Assembly (NCBI GenBank): GCA_036874045.1
Contig: JAZBRI010000004.1
Span: 5,270,001 to 5,334,000 of the forward strand
Reading direction: 5' to 3'
Source: Cymodocea nodosa
Lineage: Eukaryota; Streptophyta; Magnoliopsida; Alismatales; Cymodoceaceae
Length of the DNA: 64,000 nucleotides
A program made the position numbers and the translations under genes. Numbering within the stretch: the first letter of the stretch is position 1; each line of letters begins with the position of its first letter. The notes under the pieces were generated by a model that was not told where the DNA came from, did no database searches, and was given only the letters and a program-made list of their open reading frames with translations. Below, piece by piece: positions 2,414-36,392 of the stretch.

Positions 2414-5400
2414 CAGCTATGCATCGATCTATCCAACGAAGAGTACGATACATTGCCTCCTTAATCCGGGGACTGGTAATGGTGGTTCTCACAACATCAT
2501 CAAGAGCCATTATGATATCTGCACCAATTTTATTCTGCAAAAAGTTCTCACGGATCAGGAGCATATAAGTGACGATTTAAGGGGTAACCTTTGTATTTTG
2601 TATTAGCCGTCCATGCATAATATCCCCACCCACACCCACAAGACACCATTTAAAATATTAATTTCAAGGGGAATTTTGTGTAAAATTATATTACTTAGAA
2701 TATGCTTCAATTTGCTGATTACCCAATTTTGACAGGAAAAAGTATTCTTGTATAGAGAAAGGAACTGGTAAATTATTAATCAGACTTTGAGCTTCTGATG
2801 CTTCAACAGCCTAATATAGGAAAAATTTCATAAAGAATGTTGAAATACAATAAAGACATGGTAATGATAACCTCTACCTAAGAAAGGTCTTAACCTTCTC
2901 GATAATTGATCCATTATTAACTAAATTTACACAGAAATAAAGAACAACATGACGCATTTTAAAATGAAAAATACTAGAGATACAAATCTGGATATATATA
3001 TAAATATATAGAGAGAGAAAGAGAAGCTACCTCAAATTGTCATATCAGAACATAAATGCTTACTTGTATTTGAATAGATTCTTCAGGAGTAAGAAGCATT
3101 GGCTTTCCATCAACAGGTGACTGGTGTGAAAATAAACAATGTAAGAGCATCGCCAGTATACTGGTATCTCACAAGAGAAGTAAAATTAGAAAAGAAAAAA
3201 AAAAGGCTGCAAGACCAGTGAACATAGATCTGTTTCATTTCAAAAGAAAACATGTTTGTTATAGAAGATACAGCTGGAGACAGCTTTCTAGTATATGATT
3301 TCAAGAATTTTTGCTTGCATACCATCATATAATTTTGCTTTGTCACATGCATGTGCTACTACAGACACCAATTTATCTATATACCCTCCAAAAACCTAAC
3401 ATCTTACCAAAAAATCATCTGTTACAATGTTTAACCCTCATTCCACACGTAATGTGGAATGACTGGATAACTCCGTTATCTTCTTTTAGCCTAATCTAAT
3501 TCCAAGTTACCACCTCTAACTCATTTCTCCGTCATGGATACAACTCATTTTCTTTGCTGCCCATGGTGGGGAGGGGAGAGGTTAAAGATATTTTAATGAG
3601 TAGGAAGGTAAAAAAGACTATTCACAGACAAATAATAGCCTAAGCAAATGGGGAAACTATTTCCTAGGATCTGAACCCATGATTATCAAATCATAATGGA
3701 GAATCCATACCATTAAGACAAAGCTTGCTCTTCATTTCCTATAATCATATTGACCATAAAAATTAGCATCAAGAGATTGTGACCAAAATCAGCATAATAC
3801 AGTACCAAAATTTTGTAAATTATGGCAAAGATCTATATTTTTTTGAAACGATCTATCTATTTATTAGCAATCAATTGAATTAAATCAATGAGTCCTACAA
3901 CAAAAAATCATGATTATTTTTTGCTAAACCAATAATACTACTAAATTATTTATGTATGAGAAGCAAGACATTAAAGAACTAAATCATTGGAGGAATGGCT
4001 CACTTTCGCAAATGACAGAAAACATGAAGTTTTATATTGTAATATAAAGAGAACCACTTCTAAGAAAGGGCAATAATCATAAGATAAATGGCAATGCAAT
4101 TGTTTATTGACTTACTTGGAATGTTACACCTTCCTCAGTAATGTCAGCCAGATGTAACAAAGATACCTACTAAAGAACAAAAATATATATATGCATCACA
4201 AATTAAGAAAACAAGCATTTCAGAGAGAGAAAAAGAGTGATTTACAACCATCTGGAAGCCACCAGAATCAGTAAGTAATGCCCGTTTCCAGTTCATAAAG
4301 TTGTGGAGACCTCCCAAGTCATCTATAAGTTCAGCATTCGGTCTAAGTGCCAAGTGGTAAGTGTTACCCAAGATAATTTGGCAACCAATATCCTCAAGTT
4401 GGCTATTTGTCAGCCCTTTGATGGTACCTAGAGAGTGAAAAGGTGAAAGAATGACTTCAAACTAAAAATAAGATATGGAATAGAATCAGCAGATCTTCAT
4501 ATATTGAATTTTCTCAGGAAAATGCATACCTTCTATACTAATTAATATTTTACTAACTATAACCTTTTAACTGCAAAAATCAGGAATCATGCTAGAAGTG
4601 TGCTTTTTTGTAAAAAATGAAATCAAGCACTCCATGGTCCTTGTAAACAATTATTGCAAAAGTTTAGAACAATTTTCATTTGAGCAAAAAACTTGAGAAC
4701 ATTTTTCATGATGATTTAACTTGCATTTTGTTCCTTGATATTTGATTCAGCTACAAACACCAAGATTTTTTTTTAATAAGAGTAGGGTGCTAAATATTTG
4801 GTTCAGCTAGAAATAGATATATATTTCAAGTCTCTAACAAAATAAAGTTCATTTGCATGTCTAATGGGGCAAAAAGAATGCACTACAGTTATTCTCTCCC
4901 ACACAAGATCAGCTGATTTTGTATCTCTATATCATCCCCTTGAGCCTTTAGAATGAATCTTATTTTTTCTAATGAGAATCATCCTATTTTTCGTCTCAAA
5001 AAAAAAAACATTTCCATCATTCAATGTGCCTAGCATGCTTTTGCCAAAACAATAAAGAACTTGTATGCATCTATTGACTTAAACTCATCAGTATCCACAA
5101 ATTTTCTATTGACATATTAGAATAGGCAATAAAAACTTTTGTCCACCTCCACACTCTTGAATTCAATCCTATTAATGGCTGGGTATTAGCTCCACCATTT
5201 TTAAAATGAAGTAAAATTTTGAAACTGGAAGGGTCTAAAGTTGTAAACTAAATGATGCACATATATATATCATGGAAAAAATTTGTAAAGAATGTAGAGA
5301 ATAACCTTGTGTACCAACGGGCATGAATAATGGTGTCTGACAAAGAAAGTGAGGCAGTGACATTTGAGCTGCACGGGCACGATTAAACTTCCCTAAAACC

Positions 5401-14400: not shown

Positions 14401-17400
14401 TTTCTCCTGTATTCTGGTACAATGTGGTGAAGAAAGATTAAGAGGTGAATACATCTCATTATTACGAAGGGTGAGTACAATATATAAATAGTGAGTAATA
14501 GAACCCTAATGTAATCAAATATCTATTTACTCATTTATCCAAGACTAACATAATATTCTCACAAGAAACATACATGTCTTTGTTTATTTTGCCAAACCAC
14601 TTACAGACTACATTGTCCACCGTATTGTTCTTTACAAATGAAAATTCCAAGATACAAAACCATTATCCTCTAATGAGACGATCCTAACGTTCTGAAAAAT
14701 CGTAAATGGCCAATATGCAGATAATCATTCAAATAAAAATAAATGCCTAAAAATGGTATCAATGAGCCAAGAATTGGTGGCAGTAGGAAGTAATCCAATG
14801 TATATGAGCATGAAATATATATATGTTTTCTACGATAATGCATAATTTTTTGTTAATCACATTCCCATATTCAGTTAGTCATCTTATGTCATTACTAAAT
14901 TTACATACATTTTCCAATTTTTGTGGGAACTTGATTGCAAGAACAGTAAATGCTACACTGCTGGTTTCCCAAGATTAGTGAGTGCTGTAGCCTAGACCAG
15001 TCAGCTCTTGCCTTCATCCCAACTTATCAACCTACTAATTAGAAAACATATTCGAAGTCCACATTAGACCCAATAAAACAGCCTATAGAAAAAATTGATA
15101 GTTAGAGAGAAGTAGGTTCCAGTTTGATAAGCACCCAAGATATAGGCAATATCAGTGGCTTATGCTTGATTCTCACTAAGTGGGGATCCAAAAATGAACA
15201 GCCTCGATCAATTTTTGATCAAATTATATTAGGGAATAAGTTTGTTGCATCCATGAAGGAAGAGGGAAAAAGGCCAACCTCTTCTCCTAGCTAGTCATAC
15301 TGCTTGTTTGTGTTTAAGAAGCAATTAGGAACAACTATGGATGTTATTGTCCCATTCTTCAAAAAAAGCATAGACAATAGACAACATCATCCTAAGTATT
15401 TTAGCAGTCTGTGCCAAGAATAGAAAATTTCTACACAGAAATATATGATTACTCTTCAAAAAAAAACACATAAATACATGATTGATTGAGTACCTGAGAA
15501 TATTCCCATCAAAACTAAGTACTTCAGTGTGCTGCTGCCGGCTGGCAAGTTTTCTTCTCTGATGCACACTGGAAGTTCCAGATATCGGTGTCGAGGGCTC
15601 TGAAACAAGATTCCACCTTCCACTAGCAAAATTCATCAAATGACAAGGTAGATTTTTAGGCTCTTTATGCTGCTCTCTATGGTAAAAAAGCTTAGCAGTG
15701 GGACCAGTTGCTTGATACTCCATACAGATGTCGCGCAATCTTTTTCTTAAACTATGCATTTCATTTTGATGATCATCAAGTGAATCTGTCTGGAGTAAAC
15801 GTGACAACACCACCCTCTCACATATTTCTTTACATAATTTTGGACTAAATAGTGGGATTCCAAATTCCAGGCTCAAAGGAACCCACTCATGTTGATCACC
15901 ATCAGAAACAAAAGTGTCAGTCTCTCTTTCTTTCCAAAGCTTCAGAAGGCGAATATAACCTAGAGTCCACAGTTCCATCTTACCTGACAGGTCATTCAAC
16001 AGGGAATTCAACTTGGCACTTTCTTCCTGGCAGAGACCTATGTTTTCCCCCACATTTGCAACCAAACCATCTGAATTCTTCAATGGTAATGGAATATCAA
16101 TTGTCACTGGCTTTCCAGTCTCGTCAAGATCATACTTACATAGAGGTTGAACAAGAACAGCTGAGCATTTAAGCATTGAATTCAAACAGTGTAGTAGTAA
16201 ACTTCCCTTGACCAGGCTTCCTTCAAATTTGCCCCCCAATCCTCCTGTTACAGATCCATCCCAAGACCACATCAGGGCCTTTTCACAACCAATCAGAGGT
16301 GCAGGCAGCATACGTAGACATTGCCCTTTCATTAGCACAACTGAAAGAGGCCCACGACCCATTGCTGTGTATAACACTAGCTTCATCCATGGTGTCATTG
16401 ATGTATAAGAAGGTGGACCAAAGTGAATTGGGCCAGATGGTCCTGGCAAAATTGATGATGAAGGAAGGGGAGCCATGGACACAATAATATCATAATCACG
16501 AAGAAATAAGCGATCCAAAGTAGCTGGAGCAAGAGAAGCCAAGCTCTCACAACGTAAGATATTTATAAGATATGTTTTCTTTATCCTTGCAGTGTTTTTT
16601 CCCTTGTTTCTATCATCAGATGATGCTACAATTCCACCATCATGCACGTCAACTACCAATTCAGGTAAATCTTTTGAGGTCAAATCACTATCAGTTTGTG
16701 GAGCTTCATGACCAGCAATGCTGGAAGTGTCATCATTATATATCTTTGATTCAGAATCATTGTTTGTCTCGTGCATACTAGAATCAACATCAAATGCTGT
16801 GGCACGACAATCAACTGCTTGCAAATTAAGCATACTATCATCCTCAAAGGATGCTTCATCCACAGCCATCCCACCTGACTGGAGGCATTCCAAAACACAT
16901 CTAAGACTAAATGCATGATCTGCGAATTCTTGTAATTCACCTTCGAACTTCTTCCCTTCTAAAGCAATCAGATCCTTGCAAAGTTCAGATATATTGGCAT
17001 TACCAAGTTTTCCAGCTTCATATAGAGTCACCGCATGTGATTTCAAGCCTGCATTAAGGCAACAGCCAACAGACGAGGTTCTTATGGATCATACCTACAT
17101 TTAAGTAGAATATGAATACAGCAATGATCAATCAATTAACCACACTATGAAGGTCAGAAAAATAAATTATTGTATATTTATTTCTATTAATCACTAAATT
17201 TCTGTTAGAATATGTTATTTCAAATCTTTTTTCACAATTTGTAACCAAAATATTTTTATCCCCATATTCTTTAGATTCATCTATATTTATTAACCTTCCT
17301 TATATAATATCAATATATCCTATAGGTACTCCTTTTTCTTTTCAAAACCCATCACAATAGATTTTTAGATCTCTATCATAAGTTTTTTCTAAATTAATAA

Positions 17401-20400
17401 AAACCATATGAAGTTTCTTTTTCTTAACTCTGAAATTTTCTATTAGTTATCTAAGTAAATGAATAGTTTCCATTATTGACTTACCCAACATAAACTTAAA
17501 TTATTTTTCTATGATTTTAGTTACCTACTTAATCTTTGTTCAATTACTGTTTTCCATAATTTCATAGTATAACTGATTAATTTAATATCAGGATAATTAT
17601 TACAAATTTGTATGCCTAGACACCTCTATTAATAAATTATTTTTTCAAAATAACATAAATATATATATATATATATATATAATTTTGTGTATAGAATATA
17701 TATGCAAAATATACATAGAATACATACCAAAGAGCTCCTTAAAACAACGAAAATGGTTGTTAGTTGAGACAAAAAGGTTGAAAGAATGCAGAAGAGTTTT
17801 TTATTGTTACAGGGCCAAAAACCTTAACAAACCCTTATATATGGTTCATCATAATTGGATCTTTAACCAGATTCAGCAAGACCTGCCTGACTCAACAAAC
17901 TTGGGCATCTAAGGTCAATGCAAACTTGAAAATCCAGTTGGGTGCCTACTTCCCTTAAAAACAAAAAAAAATCTGCTTGGGTACCTAGGCACAACCCAGG
18001 CCTCTACCCCAACAACCTTGATCAGGAGATGTTCTGGGATCTATGGGTCAAAATTCAAACGTGACAAAAAGAAAAGGAAGATAAGGTGTATTATTCCTCA
18101 TGCACTTTGTTAGATGGCTCACAGCATCTTGCTGGATGCAAATGTCTACCCTTGGTTTGAGTCTCTAATGTCTATCTGAGACTTCTCTCCTTTACTCCAG
18201 GTTCCTTGTAAGATGTTTATTGCATTAATGAAAATCCTGACAAGGATGACAAGCAATCCAATTTTAACCCACCAGAAACATTTATTTTGGAATTTAGAAG
18301 TGACCACTTTTCCATCTCTATTCAATATCCCCTTCATCATTTTATAGGATGCTTATTGCATTAACGGAAAAAATCTCAACATAGGCAACAAGAAATCTAA
18401 TTTACGCCAATGAAACAATTATGAAGATAACATATGAAATACAAGTGCAGTTGTCATATTTCGTAACCCAGCATGGTCTGTGAAATCTTAATCAGCCATG
18501 CAATAGTGGGTGTGAGTGTAGGCAGTGTGAAACAATATTTATTAAGGCATCTACTAGTCATGACCTGTGCACCTAGCCATGCTAAGAAGGCTAGGTGTTT
18601 TGACACCTAGAAATATGCTAATTTCTCTTATGTTTTTCTCTTTTATATATTTATAAATATCTCAGTGTTTTATCTAGTCCTGCTTTGTTTTGGAATATTG
18701 CAATGAATATATCCATCAGTAATTATATATCAAATCATACAATATGTAGGGGAAGCTGCTATTTTTTCAAATTTACTTATCACATTTGGGCAGTCACCTA
18801 GCAACACAGGTGTTCAAGGAGCCCCGAGCTAACATGTAAATTTCTTGATGCCTTGATAACCATGTACATAAACATCTGCAACCTAACAATCTTCAACAAT
18901 TGTTCATGGTTTCACCTAGAAAAGGCAAGATTTCATATGTTGCTTGCAAGGCAAAGATTGAAGTAACAAAATAGCAAACTTTGAAGCATGTATGAGCAAT
19001 GTGAACAATAAACAATTATGAAGGGAAATAATCAAGATAACCAATACAGTAGTTCATGGTAAAATCAATAACCTTACATAATGAAAAAAAATTCAAGAAT
19101 CTGCAAATGAACCATGAATAACTGGGAATTAGAAGAAAGATTGAGGGAACCTGGTGAAATAGAGCCCATCATCAGATATGATGTTATGTTTGCATCCACA
19201 ATAAAAGCAACACGAGAAGGTCCAGAACCTGATTCATAGTTTTCTATCCCTGGATCGCTACCAGTAAACATATTCGTGCAGTTTATGTTAGCATTAGGAT
19301 TATCTTCGTCATCACTTGGTCTAGATCTAGGAGTGCTAGGTATGCTAGAATCTCGAAGAATAGATGTAGGATCTATTACTTTCACAGCCCAGCCCAATCG
19401 ACAAGCAAATGATGCAGCAGACTGAAGCTGAGAAAGATCAGCTTGTAAAGTTGCCGCTAGTTCAGCAACCGTGGAATTCTCACTTGAAACTACAAACACT
19501 GCATAGAGCAACCTGGATGTGATAAATATATAACTTCAGATTCAATATTACATTCACATCCATCAAATTATAAAGTGAGATGGATGCATGAATACGTGAA
19601 CATGCTCATTGTTATGCAAATCCAATTAACTCCTGTTAGGCGATTATGCAAGTCAGATTAACATAAATTACTAATGTACACTACTATTTACGATATTCAA
19701 TTTTTTGGGTGAAGCAGGTGGCAAGACCTGCCCTTGAGGCCTTGACCATCTGTATTTTGAACATAATTCATATAACATGTGAAACATTGGAAAACATAAT
19801 ATAAGCTGAAAAAATTCAAATGAACCTACTCTTCAATAGGGTCTTCATAGGACTGCTCCCTGTTAGAAACAAAACCTTCCAATCTGGAAACTGCATCAGA
19901 ATAACAGCAAATGCTTTTATTTGGGGAAGAGCACAGAATTATAATGAATCATTGATAGCCACCCAACATCATCAATATATTAGAGATAAAAATCTATCAG
20001 AAGGCAAGCAGATAGCCATCAAAAATCTTCACTATATTAGAAATAAAGATTTATGATAAGGCAAGCCAACCAACCATTGATGACTAACACATGAACACTG
20101 GACTATTTGATTAAAAGCAGATTATCTGTGCTAAACTGCTAATAAATGAAGGCAAGAACACCATTAACAAGTTCCATTTTATTCAAGAGAGGGGCAAGCC
20201 TAAGTGCCATAACCTTAACCAAGATCTTGTAAATCACATTGCATAAACTAATAGGCCTGAAATCATGGAAAACATAAGGCCTGTCCATTTTAGGAATAAG
20301 GGCCAGAAAGGTCGCTTTCCATGCCCAGCTGAGAGGTTGACCCTCAAAAGCAACTTGAATAGCATCTACGATATCATAACCAACAATATTCCACCAATCC

Positions 20401-23400
20401 CTGAAAAATATAGTTGAAAAAAATCCAGGTCAGGAGCATGATTGCCATTAATAGACTGAACAGCAGTCGTGATATCTTTCCCCATCAGAGCACTTTTGTG
20501 GTAGACCAGACTATCTTTGATAATATCAATCTTGTTCAAGAGCTGGTCCAAAGAATTGATAAAGGTAGAAGGGTGGTAATCTCATTCTTAATATTGACAT
20601 AGAAAAAGCTTATGATAGACTAGAGTAGCCTTTCCTCATTAGCATTCTGCAAAAGTTTGGTTTCTATGCTAAATGGGTAAATCTCATCAAGGGCTGTGTG
20701 GAATTCAATAATTTTGTGGTGCTTATTGATGACTCCCTAACTCCCTTCTTTTTAGTTCTAGAGGACTGAAACAAGGTGATTCACTCTCCCTCAATCTCTT
20801 TATCTTAGTAGAGGCCTTGCCAAACTAACAGAAAACAAAGTTATGATGCCATATTTCACTAGCAGGGAGGATTTCCTTGTCTTGCAACTTTTGTTCGCTA
20901 ATGATCTATTAATCTTTCTGAATGGTAGCAAGAGGTCTATCTAGCAAACTGTTAGTTTTCTTGATAAATATCAAATTTCAAGTTAGAGGATAAACAAGGC
21001 GAAGAGTTGCTTCCTTGTTGCCAACAATTCCCCTAGCCAACATTGTGATGTGATCAAGAGTGTTATTGCCTTTCAACAGGGATCCATTCCATTCAAGTAT
21101 CTTGATTGCACAATTTTTAAGGGTAGAACTAAAAGTACTTATTTTGAGATGATATTCCATAAAATTCAGAACAAGCTTGCGGGATGGCACAACTTGACTC
21201 TCAGCCTGAGTGGTTAGCTCATGCTTATCTGCCGCATCCTTTTGAGTATTTCTATTTATGTCTTCAGTAGTTTTGACATCTCTTCTGACACCATCCAGAG
21301 GTTGAACAAGCTGATGTCTCATTTTCTTTGGAGAGGCAGTGCAAAAGGCTGAAGAGTGCATTGGGAAGCTATTTGAAAACCTCTCTTGGAAGGTGGTTTG
21401 GGCATCTGCAACCTAGAGGAATTGATGGTGGCATTTCAGATGAAACAAGTTTGGCAGTGGCACCATGGTAGATTACTTTGGAGTTTGGGCCAAGTTTACA
21501 TAGGCAATCTATGGCATGCTAGACTACTTATTGAGTGGGCACTCCCTGCCTACTAGGATTCGCCTCCTCATTTAGACTTGGGACAGCATGAGATCCTCTT
21601 TGGTCTGGAAGAAAGGAAGAGGTGAGATTAGTTTTTGGTCAACTAAATGACTTTCATTGGGGATCTTGGCAGATCATACTCCCCAAGCTATTGAAACAGA
21701 AGCTGTTACAGTAAGAGAGGTAGCTTAGGAAAACTTCCCAATGGGGAGCCTAGGTCACTCTCCTAATCTCCTTCAAGAGATTATCCATGAGCTGAACAAA
21801 AATGATGAAGACGATTCCTTTTCATGATGATGGAATAGCAATGAGGAATTCTTTGTTAAATGAGCTTGGGAGCTAATTAGATCTAAAGTGAATACAAAAA
21901 CTTAGGGGTGGAATATATAGGGTAAATTTATCTTGACTAAATTTTCCTTTTTCTTCTAGAGATTGATGTGGAACGCACTACCACTAGAGACAAATCTAAA
22001 CTGTAGATGTATCAATATGGCATTCATATGCCCTTATTGCTTAAACTTCAAGAGTGAGGAAACAAAGAGATTAGGGCAAAAACATGATTAGTTCTCATTA
22101 AGTACACACAAGGTCCATAAATACAATGACCAACAGGTAAATGGATGATCCATTTACCCGAATACATCTTCATCACACTTAACTCTCACTTAACACTCCC
22201 CTTCAAGTTGAGGTATAGAGATTAAATAATCTCAACTTGTTACAAAAGGTGCAAATGGTAAGAGACTATGTAAAAAGACTAATGGAAAGAGTTGTAGTGA
22301 AGATATCAGCAACTTGTTGAGATGACTATGTAAGAGGTGCAAATGGTTCCATTGAGTATGAGTTGTCAAACATAACAACAATCCACCTCAATGTGTTTGA
22401 TTCTTTTATGAAATGTCTCATTACTTGTAATATGTATAGCAGTTTAATTGTCATAATACAAAGGAATAGGAGTAAGAATAGCAATTTCCAATTCCACTAA
22501 CAAATTTAGGATCCACACAATCTTCTAACTGGCATAACATATCCCTTGTATTCTAATATCCCCCTGTATTGTAATTCAGTACTAGAGGTAGACACAACAT
22601 TTTACTTCTTGCAATACCAAGTAATAAGATTTTCATCGAGATATGTGAAAAATCTTGATGTAGATTTTCTATCAACTTTGTCACAAGCATAACTAGCATC
22701 AAAGTATGCAGCCAAATTCAAATGATAAGCATTCAAATAGATTAATCCTTTGTCAAGGCATTACTTTATATAGGTAACAACTCGTAGTGCACCCTACCAA
22801 TGAACTAGTTTGGGTTCTTGCATGAACTGATTCAATAATCCCACAACAAATGCTATATCAAGACGTGTAATAATGAAATAAATGAGTTTGCTGATAAGGC
22901 AGCGATATTTTCCAACATCCTCAAATGGTTCTATTTCTATATCCCAAAATGGAGGATTTGGATCCATAGGGGTCTTTACTTGCTTGCATCCAAGCATACT
23001 TGTTTCCTTGAGGAAATCTATGACATATTTCCTCTGGAATAGCAAAATTTTCCTTGGAGCATAGGCAAACTCAATGCCAAGGAAGAATCTTGGTTTACCC
23101 ATGTCCCAAAGCACAAACTCCTTGTATAGAAATGTCTTAGTATCAACTACGTCATCTATATCATCCTTGATCAATGAAATATCATCTACATACACAGCCA
23201 TATTTAGTGATGTCAAACAATCGTCATTGAATAAAAATAAAGCTATGAACAACACATTTCTTGAACTCATGTACCAATATGATAGAGCTAAGCTTGGCAA
23301 ACAAAGCTTGGGGGCTTTGTTTTAACCCATAGATGACAAAGTTTGTTCTCTCTCTAAGCAACATACTTTAGAGGTTACTTCATAAAAACTTCTTCTTTAA

Positions 23401-26400
23401 TGTCATCATAAAAGAAGACATTCTTGACATCAAACTATGAGAAGGACCAAGACTTGGAGATAGTCAAGGCAAGTATAATACGGATAGAGCTAAGACAAGC
23501 AACTAGCGAGAATGTATCATGATAGTTAACCTCTTAAGTTTGAGTAAATACATGAGCAACTAGCTGAGTTTTGTGTTGTTCAATGGTATCATTCAGTTTG
23601 TATTTGTTAGTAAAAACTCAACAATAACTAACCACAAAAGTATGTGGAGGATGAGTAACAAGGTTCCAAGTCCCTTGATTTAGTAAAGTCTACATTTCAA
23701 CATCCATAACACACTTCCAAGCAAGAAGAGTTAGTGCTTTCTCAAAATTCTTGGGTATGGACTCAGAAGCAATGGTGAGAGCAAAGGGTGCATTAGTAGA
23801 GGATTGATAGTTGTAGGAGATGTAATTGGAAATAGGATGGGCAATGCAAGAGTATGTACTTTTTCTGAAGCACAATAGGCAAATCGAGGGTAAGTGAATC
23901 TGCAATAGGAGATGGAGATGGAGTGGTAGCTATTGGAGGAATAGAAGGTGTGTGATGTCATCATTGATGGTATACCTACAAGGAGGGAGGTCGTGGAGGT
24001 ACCTTAGGAAAAATCTATTGTGAAGTTTCTTCTGATGAGGCTAAGGGCACAGGACAGGAAGAAATAGCTATAGACAAAGGAGTTACCAATGGAATAGGTG
24101 AGGAAGAAGGATGGCTAGAGGTAGGAGGAGAGAAATAAGGTATGTCCTCCTAAAAAATGACATCAACAGACATCAAATAATGTCGGGTGGGTGGATGAAA
24201 ATAACAATAACCCTTTTGAAATCGAGGATGCCCAACAAAAACACACTTGATAGACCTAGAAGAATTTATCAATGATGTGAGATAAATTTTTCACAAAGAT
24301 AGTACAACCAAAAACCCTAAGAGAAATAGAAAACAACTCTTTATCAAGATAGAAAGAATGTAAGGAAATGACTCTGCTAAGAGAGAAAGAGGGCATGCGA
24401 TTTATCAAATGAGTGGTAGTAGAAATAATATCACACCACAGGTATAAAGGGGCATGCATCTTAACTAATAATTTGCGAGCAACATCTAAGATATAATGAT
24501 GTTTATGCTTGCCAACACTATTTTGTTGAAACATATGGACACAAGTGCTTTGATGTAAAGTGCCATGAGCAATGCAAAAAGAGCCAACAAAAGATTGAGT
24601 AAGCTCAAGTGTATTATCAATGTGAAAGACATTAGTAACAAGGCCAAATTGTGTTTATATTTCATTAAAGAATTGTTTGATAACATCAAGGACCAACTTG
24701 TAATCTTTCAACAAATATGACCAAGAAGCACAAGAGAAATCATCAATAAACACAATGATAGTCAAACAAGGGCACAACCTGATAAGACCCTCATACATCA
24801 CAATGAACAATATCAAATGGGTTGGGAGTGGACACTAATTCATGACTATAAAAGGTAGTACGAAAATGCTTATCCAAAATATAAGACTGGCAACTAAAAT
24901 GACTGATAGTGATCCAAGGCAAAGTTGCTTGCAACTTACGATGCAACAGATGTCCAAAATGACGTTGCTAGATGAGAGAAGAGTCATCAAAAGTAACAAT
25001 AGCAACAAGACCTTGAGGTATATCTTCTTTGACAAGTATATAGACACACTGTCCTTGTTCATGACCTAAATCAATCCTTCTCCCCATTTGTAGATCTTGA
25101 AAAATATAATGGAAAGGGAAGGTCATAGAACAATAAAGTTTCTTGGTAATTTTACTAATTGACAGCAAATTTACGAAAAAATTAGGAATACAAAGAACAC
25201 GGCCAAGGGTAATATTTGAATTGATGGTGGTGGTACCTTCACTAACAATAAAGCAACTACGAGCATTAGCTAAGGTCATAGAATTAAGGTTGGATAACTG
25301 GTTCAGGTGGGTAAATAAACTCTAGTTGCTTGTAAGTTAATCAAAAGCGTTTGAGTCAATAATCCAAGTAGAATTTCAAGTGGATGTATGAAAGACAGTT
25401 ACTTGAAGAAAGGACATGAGCAATCATAACGTCACTACATTGTTGAGCCTGTAATATCATCAATTCATCATAAACAACTTGAGACATTTGAATCATGCCT
25501 GATGTAGTGGGAGGATCAGCAATCGAGAAATCTACACAAACATTATTGGCAAATGATGGTGGAGTAGGTGGATGCCTAAATTTTTCTCAACATTTTTCAA
25601 AAGAATGATTGGTGTGTCCACAATTAATACAAGGGGCTCGAGAATTAGTCCATCCATCTTAAGAATGATTCCCAAACTTGTCACAGGCACGATTGGAGGA
25701 GTTTCCTTGTTGTCCAATCATGACAATAAGAGTGAATGGGGCAGCTAGGGTGGCAGAAGATGAATCAAAATTATCAGTGGTGAGGCGAAGAACTCAACCA
25801 AAGGTAGATTGCAAGGAAGGAATGGTATTTGTTGCGAGAATTTATCCATGGATTTGAGAAGACAATTCTAGACACAAACCAACAATGCATAGAGCCAACG
25901 AGAGCTCTTGATGATACCGACACAAGGTGATGAGGTCTACCACACAAGGTTGATAGTCCTCTAACTCTTGTAAAAGGGCACATAGCTTGGAGTAGTAGGT
26001 CTGAAGTGAGGAATCACTTTGATGGTGATGAAATAGTTGCTCATAGACCTTTAAAACCTTGGAAATGTTGTTATCATGTCCATAAGTGATGCATAGAATG
26101 TCCCACATATATTTAGTAGGACAAATCCAAGCTATACCATGAATAATGTGTTCGTTCATGTTGTTTAACATCCAAGTGATGATCGTATGATTAGTAGCAC
26201 ACTAGGCGGGATAAATTTCAGTGTCTTCAATAGGAGGGGGGTTAGTTAGATGTTGCTCGTGCATATTGGAGATGCAAAAGGTCTCAAACACAGGAGTCCA
26301 TGTATAATAGTTGCTCTTCATAAGTTTTACACCTATAACGGTGATTCGACCAAGCAAAGGTGTCTCAACATGATCGTTGGATCTAGGAGCAAACATTCTT

Positions 26401-29400
26401 TCAAAATGGTTTTTGGTGGAGACGATAGATGAAGAGGAACCATGAGCTTGAATTGAGGGTTGCAACTTTTACTAGGAGCTACTTAACTGGTCATCCAAAT
26501 GTGAGGATGACATCGCAAACAAAGGAAGTGGTCAACACTCTCAACGTGACGAGTGATTGTTGGGGCAAGAGAGGTGGGTTCAACAAAAAGATCACAAGGA
26601 GTGGGTTCGATAGAAGAGAGGTGGGTTAGGGATCAATTGCTCTAATACCAAGAAGAGATACGATAAAAACATGATTAGTTCTCATTAAACACACACAAGG
26701 TCCTTAAATACAATGACCAACGAGTAAATGGATCTCCATTTACCTATATACATCTTTAACACACTTAACTCTCACTTAACAGAAACTATTGAATATCTAT
26801 TTTTTCAAGAGAAATGGGTTAGCTAGCCTAGGACATATCTAGATAGGCACCATCTTTGATAGTTATTTTTTTAGCCCAAGTCATTAGTGAAATTGGGCAC
26901 TATGTAGCCTTAATAGTTAGTCTTGTAGCTTAACTCAACTTACTAGGAAGATATGTTGTGCTACTCTATTATGGGAGATTTGGAAGGAGTGAGTGTGCAA
27001 TTAAGATGGGAGCTACCATGAGCAGCTTCAAGAATATTCTTTACAAGACTCGTGATGACATTAAGGAAATTTTTCATAATCCTACATTGCCACCTACTAC
27101 ATCTATGTAGGATTGGAACATCTTAGCCAAATTAAATGTTAAATGTGAACAACTAAGAAGAAGCCCAATCAAATAGTACGCTTGGGAGCTCTCCACCAAG
27201 CTCAATTGAAGTTTAACATAGATAATGCTTTGTCTGCTTCCTTCATAGCTAAATGTGGTGGCATTGTTAGGGATGATCAAGTGAATGCTATTGTGGCATA
27301 CTCTAACTATTACCAAAACCTCTTCTAGTAGTGACTAAACTCAAACCCATTGTGGATGGGATTCAAATGTGTAAGGACTTAGGGATGGATCTAGAAAATG
27401 TCATTAATGAATCCAACTTGAAGTAGGTCATTAGCATGATTTTGAGTAGAGACTGTACTTGTTGGCAAGCTCATTTCTTTTGGGACCAATTACAGTGTCT
27501 GAGGTGACAGGTGAATATAGTGCATCATGTCATTAGGGAAGCCAATGAAAGTACAGATGCCCTAGTAAAAGATGCCTTGATGTATAAATCTAAGAGGATC
27601 TACAAATCACATGTAAAGCTACTTGTCTTGATTGATAATATTGTCACTGTGGAGGTAAACTTTCCTACAAATCTTAGGAGTAGTCATGTGGATGAGTTAG
27701 CTGATGTTTCTGGGGTAAAGCCTAGTCCCTCCTTGTACCTTTTTGATTTACAGGTTCTTGCCTCATGAATAGATTGAGAGTTTTTATCAAAAAAAAAGTT
27801 CCATTTTATTATTTACTTATTTACTCACAAATTAATGTAAAAGCTTTGTAAACTCTGATTTAAGAATAGATAGGAAATTAGCATTACATAAAAAATTCTT
27901 ATTTTTACACCTTATGCATTTAATGTTTAAAGAATGACTGGTTCAAAGGAGACATGCATGTCATACCTTTAAAACGATCATCAGGATAAATGGGAACATC
28001 AAAGTAGATCAAGCCTCTTCTATAGAGACCTTTTACAACATCAGGATCAAAAAGAAAAAAGGAATTTGCTTCTTCCTTGCATACTTTGTCAATGGTTCCC
28101 ATTTCTTCTTCCGTCAATTTCTACAGTTGGAATAAAACACAAATTTCAGACTTAAGTCGAACAGTGATAATTCAATCCATTAACCTAATGACAAAAAATA
28201 AATTGTAATTAAAAGTGGAACTACCTTGAATTCTTCTAATGTAAAATTAACAAGGCAAACCCCCCACCATGGTTCAATTGAAAATTCCACTGGTCGTGTG
28301 GGTAATAACTCCTTTGCAATTGACTTGTTAAGCTTCCACATAATTTTCTAAAACCAAAAAGGGGCATGTTAAACCATAATTAAAACCAAAAAAGTTGCTA
28401 AACAGGCATGTTCCTTTGTGTGCAATGCCACTCCATTATTAAGCCAACCATCACTCTTATAAAGAGATAATACATATTTTCTTGAGTGCACATCTGGAAG
28501 TTGATGAAATTGCAGGTTTACACATACTTCATTGAAATAAGATTTGATTTTCCTGAGAAAAGTGTATAAAGAAATGCCACAGAAATGAAGCCAAAAATTG
28601 ATAGTGCAGTTGATCTTCCATTTTATTATGATGTCTTGAGTATGAATTCAAACAACAAAATTTACCATTCTAAAAATACTGTAGAAGTGGACTTGCAGCA
28701 CTGCCATCACTTACTTCAAGTTACTTCAGCTTGGATGATTAGAGTTCAAGTATGCAAGTAATGAAAATAGTACCTTTGTGTTGAAGAAAGAAGAGGTCAG
28801 GATGTTACCTTTGACTTGCATTTGTTCATGATATCAATAAATTCATTCCGCCCTATTCCAGTTAGTCTTAGTGCATCTGCAGCACTAAAATTGGGAATAC
28901 TGTCGTATGGTTGCTCTGCAAGAAATAGCTGAAATCAGCGTGCAGTATCTTGAGAGAAGAGATATAAACAAGTACCATTGTATGCAACTACATGTTTTCA
29001 ATGTTTGATAAGTAAAAACTAACACGGAAAGGAAGTTGTAATCCATCAACTAGAAAGAAAAGTTCAACTGAAAAAACAAAAAAAAACTACATATGTAAAA
29101 TATGAAAAATGAACTAGACATCATAAACAGTTCTTCCTTATTTGAAGTGATTGAATCCATAAATCCTTATTTGCACCTTTGAACTAAAACCTCTTTGACA
29201 TTAAGCACATTTTAACGTGAGTGCCAAGGCATGAATGGGTCATACCTTAGCTGCTCACCTCACCTTGTCTTGAACTAGCAGTTCTCTTGTTGGATCCATT
29301 TATTTAAACATATATATATATTAAAGTTTTAAATGTTTTCATTGCAAAAAAAACTTAAATATAAATTTTTGATGGAGTACTACTAAAGCATACTTAATTA

Positions 29401-32397
29401 TAGAAGTATGTAATTATGCATATTAATGAAATATACATATAGTATTATTATACATCATATTTTGATGTTATCTTAGACTTATCTATGTATTTGAATATTA
29501 TCTAGGTCATAATTGAACTAAAATTATACATAATTATTATTAAATAGGTATAAATATATATAATATATACATTAAAAAAAGGAAAAAATAATATTTGCAT
29601 GGTGCCTTGGCTCATCACCTCGACACTTTAAAAAGTATGTTAAGCACAGTTTATTTTGCTTGCTATGTAAATGTTCCTAAATGGTGTGTAGTTGCTATTT
29701 GTTAGCATGGCAGATGTAGCAAGAACTATGTATTCTACTACAAGAAGATTTAGCACATCCCCGCTCAAAATTAAAAAGGAATAGCTAAGGCATCAAGGTT
29801 ATTGCAGGGGCAAATTTTGCAGTTTAGCACCATCACTGTGATAACTAAACAATGCTTACCATTCCTCATAACTTCAAAGATCATATCAGAGTAATATCTG
29901 AAAGGGGAGATCCTCATAACACGACAAATATATTCTGCTAGATGGTAAGGAAATAGCTGCAAGGAGATTGCTCAGTATAAGAAAATATAGAGAATTTAAA
30001 AAAATCAAGAATATGCAAACTTGCATGAGTAGGATATCTTTTGCGATTCTTGACCGAAGTTTCTAGTAGACTCAATCTTTTCCATTATAAATAATTTATT
30101 TCCTGTTCAATCATTTTCTCAGAAAAAATGTGTACATTCTGAAGAAGAATTCTGCTTTTATTTGCAGGTTTGGTGGACACAAATGAATAAACAGAAACAT
30201 CAGTTTACATCAGCAATCCTGCTCCACTGGAATATTTATCTTTTGCATAAAGACTTTCTGGATAATAAGTCTTACAAGCAGGTAAAAATGCATTTTTCAT
30301 CTTCAAGAATCTGTGATGAACTTCTACACTAAATAACTAACTCATGACACTGGAAAGCAATGAATAACCCAACTGGGTAAAAAATGTGAAGAAAAGAATT
30401 TGAGCAATCATGTGACAGAGTTCCATTATTAATAGGAGTGAATATCCATATAAACAAAGAAAACTTGAATATGAACAGCAGAAAATATTGTAATTCATAG
30501 GATATCTACAAAAAATAGATAGGTCTTTTTACGCACTGCAAGATTCTTACGCAAATAATGCATCATCTCTTCATAATACTCTCCTTCTTTACGTACTTTC
30601 CGAGCAAAGCAAATATTCCATTGTAACCGTTTTCTAATGCAATATTCAACTATCCTGCAGGGTTGAGAAAGGACTGAAATGAATCCAACATGTACCAATA
30701 TGACATGAAATAAACAATAAAGTCACTATATTCCAATTGCAAGTAGGAATACTGTTTGTAGGCATGACATACAAAGGATAGAACAGTTGGCAAATAAGAA
30801 GATATTAGATGGCAAAACATAGCCATATCTTGTTTTAGAGTGAATTGTGGGAAATCTACTAACTGTATAGAGGGTATTAAACTTCTATATGACTGAGGAA
30901 TCACCTAGACCAGATGGAAAGCCAAGTGCACATATCTCTTAAACGTGCAACATAAATAGCTGTAAAACAATAAAAGTAATACAAATCTATGATCCCATTG
31001 CACAATGAGCAACTATCCTGATGCACCAAGGTTCTCACTTTTTTAAATTAATAGGTGTTCTATTTTAAAGGTTTTGGAATAATTGGTGGATACAAGTTTT
31101 CTTTCACATAATTTGATGCCTGTTGACCCTCACAAATATCACAATGATAAAGGCAAGAGGACCCTACAGAATAAAATAAATAATAGATGAAGATCCATGT
31201 AGATTTCAATTAATGATATCTCTGTGTACAAAGACAAAAATTGGGACACCAGGGTGATTCCCTCCAAACGACATGTAACTTTGGATTTACCATGATATTT
31301 AACACTTAGCAATTAAGTGCTACAATGGATTTAACACGTGCAGACTTAAATTAAGTCTAAAATGGCTTGACTGGGCCTAACTTAACAGTTATTTAATTAA
31401 TACGTCCAACACATTGAATAAGGGAGTCCAGTGCAGTAGAAGTCAGCATCTATGTGTAAGTTGAGCGCTGAACTCTTTGGAGGTATGGCTGTTCCTCAAA
31501 CTGCAATTAATGAATAGACCATTGTCACTGTTTCGATTTTCTTAACAATATCTCGTAGGATGCGGAAGATACTGTCTCTGATTGGATAATCATTGGAATA
31601 CCAATGGCATGACCACATCCATCCTTTTCAACATCCAACAATGTACTCCCCTAACTCTACTCCACCCCCAACGCACTTGTTGTGACATCATTTTTCAACT
31701 GTTTGGAGAAAATTCTATCCACCAAATAATTGCCCCTTTTTGAGCAGGGTTAGTAGTTTGTGAAAAATGTAGGACGACTCATAATGACAAACCTCATTTG
31801 AACTTTTTTGTTTTGGATAAGTATCCCTCCAATTCAAGATTTTCCACTTTAATTCTACACTTTCAATAAACAATTTGATTCGCAATTACCTAATCGTCTA
31901 TTATGCAGCGTGCTATGCTCCTCTTAATAGTTTTAGTTGTCGGAATTAGTTGTAGTCCATAGTTGAATTCTTGGTGTTCGTGTCACTGTAGCAATAAACG
32001 GTGGTGTTATAGACATAGGGGAATAGCTCATTTGAGCTACAGGTGTGATTCTTCTTGAAAACTTGAGTTTTCTTCTCTCACGTTGGTTCAACGCAGGGAA
32101 GAATCATCCTGGGAAGATTGACAGCCGGTCCGCCGCCAAAAGTCTTCGACGATTGTAGCTGTGACCAGCAACGAACCATCAGGCTACGGTTCACCGGCTG
32201 ATTTAGTTTGTATCACAGAGAAAGTACAACTAGATCCCAAACAACAAAATATGCTGGGAAAAAGACTACCTCCTATGCCATTCATCCTTGGTCGACAACG
32301 TTGCTTGTAACCTCTTCGGGAGGTTCTCCCATGGGCACTCCTCCTTGATTGATTTCAAGATGAGTTGCTCCTCTACGGTCCCCGGCGAGTGCTGCAT
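11448..32397 (-). CDS. FAM91A1: FAM91A1-like vesicle-tethering adaptor protein, complete, ten exons, 986 aa
   Basis: Exons in transcript order: 32270-32397, 30537-30654, 29860-29956, 28809-28915, 28225-28347, 27967-28120, 19830-19890, 19151-19512, 15494-17048, 11448-11703. They total 2961 nt, are in frame throughout and end at TGA. Landmarks are [12 protein letters not shown] near residue 20, [17 protein letters not shown] about 85-105, [17 protein letters not shown] about 130-147, [13 protein letters not shown] about 264-276, [19 protein letters not shown] spanning exons 8/9, and [11 protein letters not shown] and [14 protein letters not shown] near the end. These match the N- and C-terminal FAM91 domains. 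Animal FAM91A1 binds TBC1D23 and WDR11 at the trans-Golgi to capture endosome-derived vesicles; a similar plant role is inference. Exon 9 is unusually large (1555 nt). Intron 6 (19891-27966) carries the nested retrotransposons. Length agrees with plant homologues of about 1000 residues as I recall them. Confidence 0.93.
11822..12053. mobile_element. Small MITE with TIRs, in FAM91 intron 9
   Basis: Imperfect terminal inverted repeats: GCTGTGTTTGGAAAT at the left, and ATTTCCAAATACAAC at the right (reverse complement GTTGTATTTGGAAAT). They enclose about 230 bp of AT-rich sequence with no coding potential, although a chance open frame runs through it on the plus strand. Size and TIR style suit a non-autonomous hAT- or Harbinger-like element. 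I could not define a clear target duplication. Confidence 0.6.
12054..12700. other. FAM91 intron 9, unassigned part
   Basis: AT-rich intron sequence between the MITE and the copia relic. I see no coding or repeat structure that I can name. The right end may be more of the same decayed copia pol. Confidence 0.4.
12700..14563 (-). mobile_element. Decayed Ty1/copia retrotransposon, 5' part (LTR, gag, start of pol)
   Basis: A probable 5' LTR runs from TGTGAGAATATT at 14563 to about 14419 (TATA-like stretch near 14480) and is followed by a poor tRNA-Met-type primer site. Minus-strand fragments in order: gag ([15 protein letters not shown] near 13900; [19 protein letters not shown] near 13600), the region before the pre-integrase domain ([14 protein letters not shown] near 13090), and pre-integrase/integrase start ([16 protein letters not shown] near 12900; [15 protein letters not shown] near 12740). 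Many in-frame stops. No RT or 3' LTR was seen, so the element is truncated. It sits in the same orientation as the host gene, in intron 9. Confidence 0.8.
13243..13314. repeat. 36-bp tandem duplication
   Basis: Two adjacent 36-bp units (13243-13278 and 13279-13314), beginning GTGCAACCACAATGCTCACA, differ at one position. They lie inside the decayed copia element. Near-identity beside heavily decayed coding sequence suggests a recent local duplication. Confidence 0.9.
14564..15493. other. FAM91 intron 9, exon-9-proximal part
   Basis: AT-rich sequence between the copia LTR and exon 9. I see no gene or named repeat in it. The donor of exon 9 is the GTACTC directly after LSFDGNIL(R), at 15493. 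Confidence 0.5.
17160..17640 (-). mobile_element. RTE-type LINE relic, reverse transcriptase N-terminal part
   Basis: Minus-strand broken frames read [20 protein letters not shown] near 17610-17550, then VIEQRLSR, then a decayed VFIDLEKAYDR-like segment near 17400-17380. These are the conserved opening blocks of RTE-clade reverse transcriptase. Several stops and shifts are present. It lies in FAM91 intron 8 (17049-19150). Confidence 0.7.
17659..17681. repeat. (AT)n microsatellite
   Basis: An uninterrupted AT dinucleotide run of about eleven units in FAM91 intron 8, adjacent to the RTE relic. Confidence 0.85.
18545..18875. repeat. Dispersed repeat, CAAGGCATG family, second copy
   Basis: Begins near ATTAAGGCATC and ends near GATGCCTTGATAA, which are inverted relative to each other. 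It contains CACCTAG motifs near both ends. It shares order and wording with 48641-48945 (AAGAAGG.TAGG start, GAGCATATCCATC or AATATATCCATC interior). Likely a small DNA element of the same family as 10588-11222. Confidence 0.4.
20171..20183. repeat. Left target-site duplication of the LINE
   Basis: GTTCCATTTTATT, identical to 27798-27810 on the other side of the LINE poly(A). It can be extended by two ambiguous A residues. Confidence 0.9.
20184..20494 (-). mobile_element. Inverted 5' segment of the LINE
   Basis: Reads on the minus strand, starting near 20495, through [17 protein letters not shown], then [27 protein letters not shown] and [10 protein letters not shown], ending at 20184 against the target duplication. 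In an uninverted LINE this precedes the [10 protein letters not shown] block that here starts on the plus strand at about 20495. A few residues between LAPLL and the forward block are missing, as often seen at twin-priming junctions. Confidence 0.85.
22064..22195 (-). repeat. 3' LTR of the intron-6 copia element
   Basis: 132 bp starting TGTTAAGTGAGAGTTAAGTG at 22195 on the minus strand, directly after the polypurine tract. It ends at 22064 against GAAAC. Confidence 0.9.
22196..22207 (-). other. Polypurine tract of the copia element
   Basis: Minus strand CTTGAAGGGGAG immediately before the 3' LTR, the usual priming site for plus-strand DNA synthesis in copia elements. Confidence 0.85.
22560..23640 (-). 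pseudogene. copia reverse transcriptase / RNase H relic
   Basis: N-terminal RT pieces at about 23640-23330 read [38 protein letters not shown] and [19 protein letters not shown]. An open stretch from about 23300 to 22794 holds the catalytic AVYVDD motif, then [20 protein letters not shown] and KTPMDPNPP. Decayed RNase H follows to about 22560. Stops and shifts between blocks show inactivity. Confidence 0.85.
24256..25400 (-). pseudogene. copia integrase relic
   Basis: Minus-strand pieces include [20 protein letters not shown] and a pre-integrase [16 protein letters not shown] near 24960-24910 with the expected His/Cys spacing. Further on come VHCDVWGS-like remnants near 24800 and the integrase core end ([34 protein letters not shown] at about 24470-24300). 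Several frameshifts and stops. Confidence 0.75.
25780..26465 (-). pseudogene. copia gag relic
   Basis: Starts at 26465 after the primer site and reads [18 protein letters not shown] (UBN2-type gag start). A stop interrupts it near 26202, and it resumes with [20 protein letters not shown] and [18 protein letters not shown] to about 25842. The capsid-like fold is typical of copia gag. A decayed zinc-knuckle spacer follows (HSFEKC near 25600). It has stops and is not functional. Confidence 0.8.
26639..26650 (-). other. Primer-binding site of the copia element
   Basis: Minus strand TGGTATTAGAGC, one change from TGGTATCAGAGC, the site complementary to the 3' end of plant initiator tRNA-Met used by most copia elements. 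It abuts the 5' LTR. Confidence 0.85.
26651..26781 (-). repeat. 5' LTR of the intron-6 copia element
   Basis: 131 bp starting TGTTAAGTGAGAGTTAAGTG on the minus strand at 26781. It aligns along its length with 22064-22195. Its inner end abuts the primer-binding site. Confidence 0.9.
27798..27810. repeat. Right target-site duplication of the LINE
   Basis: GTTCCATTTTATT directly follows the A-run that ends the LINE, matching 20171-20183 exactly. Confidence 0.9.
29226..29625. repeat. Dispersed repeat, CAAGGCATG family, third copy
   Basis: Starts with GTGCCAAGGCATGAATGGG and ends near GGTGCCTTGGCTCATCACC. The ends are roughly inverted, around a very AT-rich core with TATATA runs. It lies in FAM91 intron 3 (28916-29859). 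Confidence 0.35.
30655..32269 (-). other. FAM91 intron 1
   Basis: About 1.6 kb between the first exon, ending ..WHR(R), and the exon starting [13 protein letters not shown] see no transposon domain or repeat in it. The introns at 29957-30536 and 28348-28808 are likewise plain. Confidence 0.55.
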
Positions 32398-33649: not shown

Positions 33650-34960
33650 TACATTATCTTATTCAACATTGTTAACAAATTTTTCATTCAATACAACATT
33701 TTCTTCGCCTAATTCATCTACTAAATCTTGTAGTAAGTATTTTCGATTTACTCTTCTAATGAAATTATAGACAAAAAAACATATTAAAATAATTTTAACT
33801 TGTGTTTCAAATAGATATAGCATGTAATCTCGTAAAATTGCAAATTAATGTTTGATTACTCCAAATGTACGTTCTATAACATTTCTCAATTGAAAATGTC
33901 TATAATTGAAATTCTCTACCGCATTACTTGGAACTCGATTCTGATCATATTCTGATAGATGATATCGTATACCTCGAAATAGAGAAATAAATTTCAAATA
34001 ATTTGGAAATACTGCATTTACTAAATAATATTTATTTGCACAATATACATAACATTTAGCATTTTCTATTATTTACATTTATGTAAACAAATAATGTGAA
34101 TGAAAGTAATGTCATACTAGGTATTATTTCAAGTTCATGTGGTTGAGAAGTCACATCTTATAATATCTTTGCATCTACAGCTGATCATTCTCAACCAACA
34201 ATTACATACATGATTTCCATGTTAAAATTATAAGCTGCTAATACATTTTGTGTTAATTCTACTTTCCTATTTTTATATTTAGTAGTTTCTTGTCCATAAA
34301 TTGTGGTATTGACATATGCACCATCTATAGCATTAATTTAATCCTATATTGAGAACATGTAAAAAATGTATTGTCAAACATCTATACAAAATACATTCAA
34401 TGAAATAGAAGAACAACATAATATAATTCACATTTTACATTAAAATATAGGTAGACATTTAGATCATTACGAATTCTGCTTGGTGTTGATGATGAAGGTT
34501 TTATTATAAGTATATCATGTAATTTTATTATAGCATTGATAACTTCATTGAAATATATGCTAATTGTCCAAGCAGATCTCCCAAAATGCTTAGTAGTTAC
34601 TCCATATTGTTAGTTTTGACCAATTGTACTAATAAAAATTGCTAATTTCTATTCTACACTTATACCTCGGCTATCTTATATAACTCTTTTAAGCAACCCA
34701 CAAAATTCCATAAAAATAGTTTGACTCATGCGATATATTTTTTGATAGTTATATGATTGGTGAGGTATTGATGAATCTAATAATGTCCTAGTATATCGTT
34801 CTCTCTCTCTATTATATATTCATTCAATAGAATTTCTTCTAATATGTGTAATATTATGTGCAATATTATGTGCAACTACTCTACACACTTGAGTAATTAT
34901 GTTGTATATCTACCTTCGTCTTCACCTATCTAATCGTCATTGAGAACTTTCATCGTAGTT
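33650..34960 (-). pseudogene. PIF/Harbinger transposase relic
   Basis: Minus-strand order matches HARBI1-type transposases: SYNYQKIYRMSQTIFMEFC near 34760-34700, a decayed SRGISVE..LAIFISTIGQN helix block, HFGRSAWTISIYFNEVINAI near 34590-34530, AIDGAYVNTTIYGQE (first catalytic Asp, family DGTH) near 34320, NRKVELTQNVLAAYNF near 34250, then YYLVNAVFPNYLKFISLFRG near 34000 and QLRNVIERTFGVIK near 33880. It ends N-V-E-stop near 33655. Several in-frame stops make it inactive. It is the first of a two-gene Harbinger set. Confidence 0.85.
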
Positions 34961-35282: not shown

Positions 35283-36130
35283 TCACATAACTCGTATAGC
35301 GTTAGAGGGTAACCCTAAAAAAATAGTTTTTTTCACATAGTGTTCTAGCAATTCCAAGCTTAATATTTTCTCTGCATCTGTAAGACCCTCAATATCAAGG
35401 ATTTGGGGAATAACTTCATCTATTTCTTTTCTGAGTTTTGATTTCTTTTCCTTCTCATCATTTTCTGCCATCCTCGCCATACTTTTACTTAGTTCATTTA
35501 TTGATATAGCAATTGATTAAGATGATTCAACATGTGGTTGAGTTCTTTTACTACCAACATTTTCACCTGTATAAAGGCTTGGCGTATGTTCATCCTCTTT
35601 ATTATCAAGAAATATTAGAGGAACTTGAGTATTGAATACAGGGAAGGTGTCCATAGGTTCTTGGGGTTGCACATATTGTGACTCTAAAATCTTGGGAAAC
35701 TTGACTATCACTCTAGTTGTCATATTTCCATCAAACACTGTATATAGATCATTATATATTGTATATGACTTTCCCTAACATGTTTTACATTATAAATGTT
35801 GCTATAAGAAATAAATGAAAGAAATTACTTAATATATAAAAGTTCAAAGAAATAAATGAATACCATCAAATAAAATAACATGTCTGCACAAATTCATCCC
35901 AAATTTCTTTGGGAATGCCATTATGTTCATGGATGTAGTCCCACTCATCCATTTTATTTGAAAATTTTTGTATAATTTTTATACATTGTTCTTCATGTTT
36001 TCATTCTACTTTATATATATATTTTCTTAACATTGACATTAGTTTTATCATTGTATTTAACAATCAATTTTTGCCATGTCTCAACTCTGATCTTTCCATC
36101 ATGTGCTTTGGCATTTCATTCTCTTATTTC
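35283..36130 (-). pseudogene. PIF/Harbinger accessory (Myb/SANT-like) ORF relic
   Basis: Minus-strand fragments include KMDEWDYIHEHNGIPKEIWD near 35950-35890, an open piece MFDGNMTTRVIVKFPKILES (35738 down) and a C-terminal helix-rich piece KLRKEIDEVIPQILDIEGLT (35480 to 35283). This layout suits the Myb/SANT-like partner protein that plant Harbinger elements carry beside the transposase. I infer the assignment from position and general character, since the SANT tryptophans are not all visible. Confidence 0.55.
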
Positions 36131-36392
36131 TGATGTTAAGATACTTAAAAAAATTTCATATTATCTAATACTTTAGTTCACATATTTATTTCTCTCAGAA
36201 GTCATATTCCTATATTATGTTTATTAACAAAGCTAGAAATTACAAAATAAAATTTTTATTTCAAGTAGAATTTAATAGAAAAAATAGGTCACTACATTAA
36301 AGAGCACTAAGATGTAGTTGTGAATGCAAAATAAATGTAAAAGAGCAAGAAACTAGGAAAAATTTGCAACATTCAAGCACAAATATTAGAAA

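Follow-up and report, generated by a model that had tools for sequence, protein, structure and literature searches.

A 5'-inverted LINE, consistent with twin priming, and a later Ty1-copia insertion in a FAM91 intron of Cymodocea nodosa

Background

Twin priming was reportedly described by Ostertag and Kazazian in 2001 for human L1 insertions with a 5' inversion. Here we describe a similar arrangement in the plant Cymodocea nodosa: a long interspersed nuclear element (LINE) in an intron of a FAM91 gene, whose first ~290 nt lie on the opposite strand to the rest, and which is itself interrupted by a degraded Ty1-copia element. The window, by which we mean the whole stretch of DNA analysed, comprises 64,000 nt of assembly GCA_036874045.1 (JAZBRI010000004.1:5,270,001-5,334,000, forward strand), and all coordinates given without a locus name are relative to it.

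Human L1 insertions with a 5' inversion, as set out in two studies (PMC12016303, PMC2837659), share with the C. nodosa copy a target-site duplication, an A-tail, an inverted 5' piece followed by a forward 3' piece, and a small gap or overlap between the two; the window case differs in being an old and degraded plant LINE in a plant host, in which priming microhomology is not demonstrable. The L1-type retrocopy R_AT4G31900.1 (PMC4838847) also carries an A-tail and a 15-bp duplication and was subsequently interrupted by a copia element of 1.8 kb, but it is the retrocopy of a gene rather than a LINE, and the main text of that paper does not contain the words invert, inversion or twin. Among flowering-plant L1-clade LINEs an (A)n tail, as in the window copy, is recorded for 224 of the 233 flowering-plant L1 families in the table of PMC3747384, whereas the window copy is 5'-truncated, 5'-inverted and interrupted. 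A study of LINE 5' junctions in cultured cells (PMC4245944) found 5' inversions accompanying duplications of 10-20 bp, the range into which the present case falls, and a peak of L1-clade duplication lengths at 13-15 bp. All of those inversions arose from human L1 in human cells, save for a single zebrafish Nimb-2_DR insertion in chicken cells, in contrast to the plant setting here, and the study suggests that special features of L1 and of the host lie behind them. A literature search judged by titles returned no plant twin priming or plant LINE 5' inversion among the matches listed, with subscription journals little covered, and earlier plant reports may exist.

The LINE and its inverted 5' end

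The host intron lies on the minus strand at 19891-27966, begins with GT and ends with AG, and is in phase 1; the two exons beside it join in frame as DDRFK/VSRLEGF (the slash marking the intron), and neighbouring exons have Pfam FAM91_N/FAM91_C matches. Its measured length of 8,076 nt agrees with the figure of about 8.1 kb in a preliminary description made from the same sequence, which had proposed that a LINE entered the intron and a copia element then entered the LINE. Without 20184-27810 (7,627 nt) the intron would be 449 nt long. The preliminary description also placed the LINE between two copies of one sequence, and GTTCCATTTTATT is indeed found as an exact repeat at 20171-20183 and 27798-27810. 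It occurs exactly twice on the plus strand of the window, where base composition predicts 0.004 occurrences per strand. If two A residues of the 3' A-run are counted, the duplication extends to the 15 bp AAGTTCCATTTTATT (20169-20183 and 27796-27810), the matching AA on the left being at 20169-20170.

Between these repeats the LINE is not a single forward element, a feature overlooked in the preliminary description. The start of the reverse transcriptase domain reads on the minus strand at 20184-20474 (RVT_1 profile 1-32, E 0.0049, below the curated cut-off), its inner boundary being fixed to within 3 nt. The rest of the reverse transcriptase and everything downstream read on the plus strand, first at 20474-22063, a part full of stops that runs to the zinc-binding region (RVT_1 profile 72-109, E 0.0025, below cut-off), and then, beyond the copia element, at 26782-27797, which contains an RNase H-like match (RVT_3, E 0.017, below cut-off) and ends in a short A-run at 27789-27797. 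The proposal that a LINE was inserted into the intron is supported by the 13-15 bp duplication, and was incomplete in that the insertion consists of an inverted 5' piece as well as a forward body.

The element appears to be a member of the L1 group. LINE-1 ORF2p accounted for four of the seven PDB matches (best E 0.0076, listed for the first part of the forward body), the others being one further RNA-directed DNA polymerase and two kinases at chance level; the copy would therefore carry an L1-type reverse transcriptase, with the weak scores of a degraded sequence. An RNase H-like domain follows the reverse transcriptase in plant L1 members. Both this domain (RVT_3, 0.017) and a zinc-binding region (zf-RVT, 7e-6) were detected below their cut-offs, and the window LINE also has an A-tail and a target duplication within the range of 12-16 bp. 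L1-clade LINEs carry an apurinic-type endonuclease at the beginning of ORF2. The window copy is 5'-truncated, and no endonuclease match at E 0.01 was obtained from the stretches upstream of three siblings, translated in three frames each.

Sibling copies were sought in the same 374.6-Mb genome. A search with part of the LINE body returned at least 19 matches, the window copy included, and one with the LINE tail at least 51; the set examined contained 36 LINE loci at about 28 places (labelled L0xx). All sibling comparisons were made within this one genome. Among the other copies, the highest-scoring one shares 74-75% identity with the window copy, while short tail pieces reach 85%. All ten of the loci that hold both have the counterparts of the inverted piece and of the body collinear on a single strand. 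The gap between the two pieces measures about 7-9 nt in eight of nine aligned siblings (AGCAAGCTT in L002), the ninth, L007, having a deletion at the junction. In the window a single duplication encloses two pieces of one element, the 5' one inverted and the 3' one forward, and the two pieces, being separated by only these few bases in the siblings, would have been adjacent in the source RNA. The inverted piece starts at 20184, the first base past the target-site duplication. Twin priming, known mainly from human L1, leaves this signature: an inverted segment that borders directly on the duplication and comes from immediately upstream of the forward piece, with a few bases lost in between (PMC12016303, PMC2837659).

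Order of the LINE and copia insertions

The copia element occupies 22064-26781 and, as the preliminary description stated, is flanked by GAAAC on both sides (22059-22063 and 26782-26786). GAAAC occurs 68 times in the window against 71 expected, and as a 5-mer is weak evidence alone. Excision of 22064-26781 together with one GAAAC leaves the LINE contiguous, restoring the gapless reading that had been claimed, and a zf-RVT match (Pfam, 7e-6; 27.1 bits, just missing the cut-off of 27.5) spans the join. The two 150-nt flanks of the copia site were searched separately in the 36 loci. Both flanks were found in 15 loci, representing 11 distinct copies elsewhere in the genome, and one flank only in four further loci. 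When projected, the flanks coincide in a single sequence and overlap by exactly 5 nt in 14 of the 15, so that the siblings place the join at the GAAAC repeats; the shared 5 nt are mostly GAATC or GAATT in the siblings, where the window has GAAAC twice. The sibling loci thus present the empty-site picture for the copia element. The order of LINE first and copia second, already put forward in the preliminary description, is well supported, because the sibling copies hold the site once, as LINE sequence, with 5 nt shared in 14 of 15 loci. Such nesting is ordinary, textbook transposon stratigraphy.

We consider that an intron was entered by a LINE that was truncated and 5'-inverted by twin priming during its insertion, and then by a copia element (probability roughly 0.88), because the inverted piece abuts both the duplication and its neighbouring piece. 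The L1-type LINE would have nicked an otherwise empty FAM91 intron, reverse transcription of the LINE RNA beginning at the A-tail (target-primed reverse transcription). We infer that the opposite strand of the target subsequently served as primer for another round of reverse transcription, which started at an internal position on the LINE RNA, and that joining of the two complementary DNAs (cDNAs) placed a short inverted piece before the forward body, all inside one 13-15 bp duplication and with truncation at the 5' end. A Ty1-copia element would later have integrated into the zinc-binding region of the LINE in the opposite direction, duplicating 5 bp.

Several observations weigh against this reconstruction. 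The inner joint shows at most about one shared base. The siblings are distant, the highest-scoring one being 74-75% identical, which makes the figure of 7-9 nt for the gap an approximation. The siblings match the complement of the duplication at only part of its positions, so that the expected pairing between the overhang and LINE RNA is not demonstrable; the complement of the duplication end (AATAAA...) resembles the siblings in part only, L025 having ATAAA one base off. At the copia site, L025 is the one locus of 15 that projects 9 nt rather than 5, and the right-hand start was extrapolated in six of the 15, the match beginning 4 to 36 bases in. A FAM91 paralogue that could offer an empty intron site was sought in the genome and a single FAM91 locus was found, leaving no empty intron site for comparison.

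Alternative origins of the inversion

An insertion that was plainly 5'-truncated, with its first ~290 nt inverted later by DNA breakage and repair, would give the same final arrangement and could account for the small loss at the inner joint. It is nevertheless improbable: one breakpoint would have to coincide exactly with the duplication boundary, a position that twin priming requires, and 5' inversions are common in human L1, at 18.4% of germline and 21.9% of somatic insertions in the figures taken from PMC12016303. Dual priming, in which the inverted and forward pieces derive from two different LINE RNA molecules, has been proposed for some primate L1 insertions (PMC2837659), and the differences among siblings leave room for a second RNA. 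We regard it as less probable again, as only about 7-9 nt separate the two pieces on the map of the element, a closeness expected from one RNA and fortuitous from two.

LINE pieces do adjoin others elsewhere in this genome, as at L030 and upstream of L002, and what is seen here might likewise be two fragments of separate origin, or a fortuitous mosaic, in juxtaposition; that one duplication encloses both pieces, which abut on the LINE map, makes this highly improbable. Weakest of all is the notion of a copia element already resident in the intron that LINE sequence later enclosed. Nothing was found in its support; against it, the sequence duplicated by copia belongs to the LINE and occurs a single time in 14 of 15 sibling loci, and both elements lie within the LINE's own duplication.

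The Ty1-copia element

The element interrupting the LINE reads on the minus strand and was recognized from a long terminal repeat (LTR) pair and Pfam matches. On the plus strand, its 3' LTR forms the left side (22064-22195) and its 5' LTR the right side (26653-26781). A purine tract, read by eye, lies before the 3' LTR at 22196-22204, and the primer-binding site TGGTATTAGAGC, which we take to be of the initiator tRNA-Met type (tRNA, transfer RNA), is at 26639-26650; the relative L041 has TGGTATCAGAGC in its place. Open stretches encode a copia-type reverse transcriptase (22794-23321; RVT_2, E 2.2e-12) and Pol_BBD (24968-25321; E 4.4e-6), and a gag piece is located at 25842-26201 (Retrotran_gag_2, E 7.6e-4, below the curated cut-off). 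In Ty1-copia elements the integrase precedes the reverse transcriptase; the open stretch 24256-24654, a putative integrase judging by eye from its motif, matched no Pfam family. The element therefore has the copia-type reverse transcriptase and gag (the latter as a weak match), LTR pair, tRNA-type primer-binding site and 5-bp duplication of a Ty1-copia element.

Copia LTR ends are usually, though not necessarily, TG...CA. Here they are TG...TT, both in the window 3' LTR and in the 5' LTR of L041. The window 3' LTR ends in ...CTCTTT, and the identical end stands before the primer-binding site of L041; because L041 ends alike at this position, the limits 22064-26781 given in the preliminary description are right, the LTR starting after the purine tract and ending before the primer-binding site in both copies. 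L041 is flanked by ATTTC and, beyond its 3' LTR, by (T)GTTTC, close to the GTTTC of the window element (minus strand). We take this likeness to be a coincidence or a mild preference, since the other relatives examined, L042 and L043, differ in their 5' flanks.

The two LTRs are 87.8% identical over 131 aligned columns. One alignment gives 14 substitutions in 129 sites (Kimura two-parameter distance 0.118, standard error 0.033) and another 19 in 129. At substitution rates of 1.3e-8 to 4e-9 the first alignment would date the pair to 4.6-14.8 million years, a range set aside as unreliable, as the alignments differ and the LTRs diverge unevenly from L041. The window 3' LTR differs from the L041 5' LTR at 4 of 131 sites, the window 5' LTR at 14 of 128; the window 3' LTR is much closer to that LTR of L041 (4/131) than to its own partner (14-19/129), and the internal parts are about 79% alike. 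This pattern, noted for the window element with L041 and L044, may reflect exchange between copies or uneven change.

Other LINE copies in the genome

Twenty-four loci, including the window's own (L009), were scanned for target-site duplications, and nine gave an exact repeat of at least 10 bases. Exact duplications around the mapped LINE and behind an A-rich tail, with the 5' copy at the mapped LINE start, are present at L015 (16 bp), L033 (16 bp) and L018 (12 bp). L025 has a 16-bp repeat, likely its target-site duplication, whose 5' copy precedes the mapped LINE start by 215 nt. The repeats at L011, L027 and L037 (10-11 bases) were dropped as likely chance, that at L017 because its flank is a tandem repeat, and that at L014 because the stretch before its LINE matches no LINE locus of the set.

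At L034:1326-1679 an inverted LINE 3' segment precedes a forward one, and the forward part contains that same segment as well; no target-site duplication was found at this locus. L034 is a candidate only for a second LINE 5' inversion, with overlapping pieces. The 5' end is proven for few siblings within the DNA examined, and no inversion rate is therefore given.

Other rearrangements were noted. The loci L012, L013, L015 and L024 fall together at G000 C3:2145477-2146820, where one 16-bp duplication, ATATAAGAAAATATTA, encloses head-to-tail repeats of a LINE 3' piece in units of 407 bp, the first two of which are 95.6% alike; a truncated LINE is here becoming a small tandem array. L011, L019, L025 and L035 lack internal stretches of about 0.9-1.5 kb, and an origin from spliced LINE RNA was set aside, the boundaries differing among the four copies. 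Two LINE pieces lie tail to tail at L030:1228-2104, possibly because one LINE entered another that was older and inverted. At L002 a zf-RVT match (5.7e-8, about 361-603) is found upstream of the reverse transcriptase start, and another LINE piece therefore precedes the LINE of this locus.

The FAM91 gene and neighbouring features

The gene is represented on the minus strand by FAM91_C (15325-17088; Pfam, 5.9e-60) and by FAM91_N at 19074-19535 (1e-8) and, further upstream, at about 28701-28931 (1.7e-16) and 29855-29971 (1.3e-7). The earlier statement that both insertions left the FAM91 coding frame intact was checked at the two exons beside the intron and holds there. Upstream of FAM91, also on the minus strand, are a DDE_Tnp_4 remnant (33764-33973; 2e-5) and a Myb/SANT-like remnant (35948-36157; 0.0094), both below Pfam cut-offs, which together suggest an old element of what we take to be the PIF/Harbinger type. 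An open stretch at 4144-4461 on the minus strand resembles a queuine tRNA-ribosyltransferase when judged by eye. Rfam and tRNA scans of the window gave no matches.

Implications for plant LINEs

The event described here is of a known kind, and a clean 5' inversion in a plant is a modest addition to it. With the window copy as a clean case and L034 as a possible second, we lean slightly towards the view that plant L1-clade LINEs generally undergo twin priming, which would then extend beyond human L1 in human cells. If so, the permissive host steps would be common to plants and animals. To judge from an inversion with such clear limits in a plant L1, the route may be older or less host-bound, which a genome survey can test directly. 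Within the three-layer history of the intron, the inversion would make the LINE layer the product of two simultaneous cDNAs. In a plant, such an event is worth a survey.

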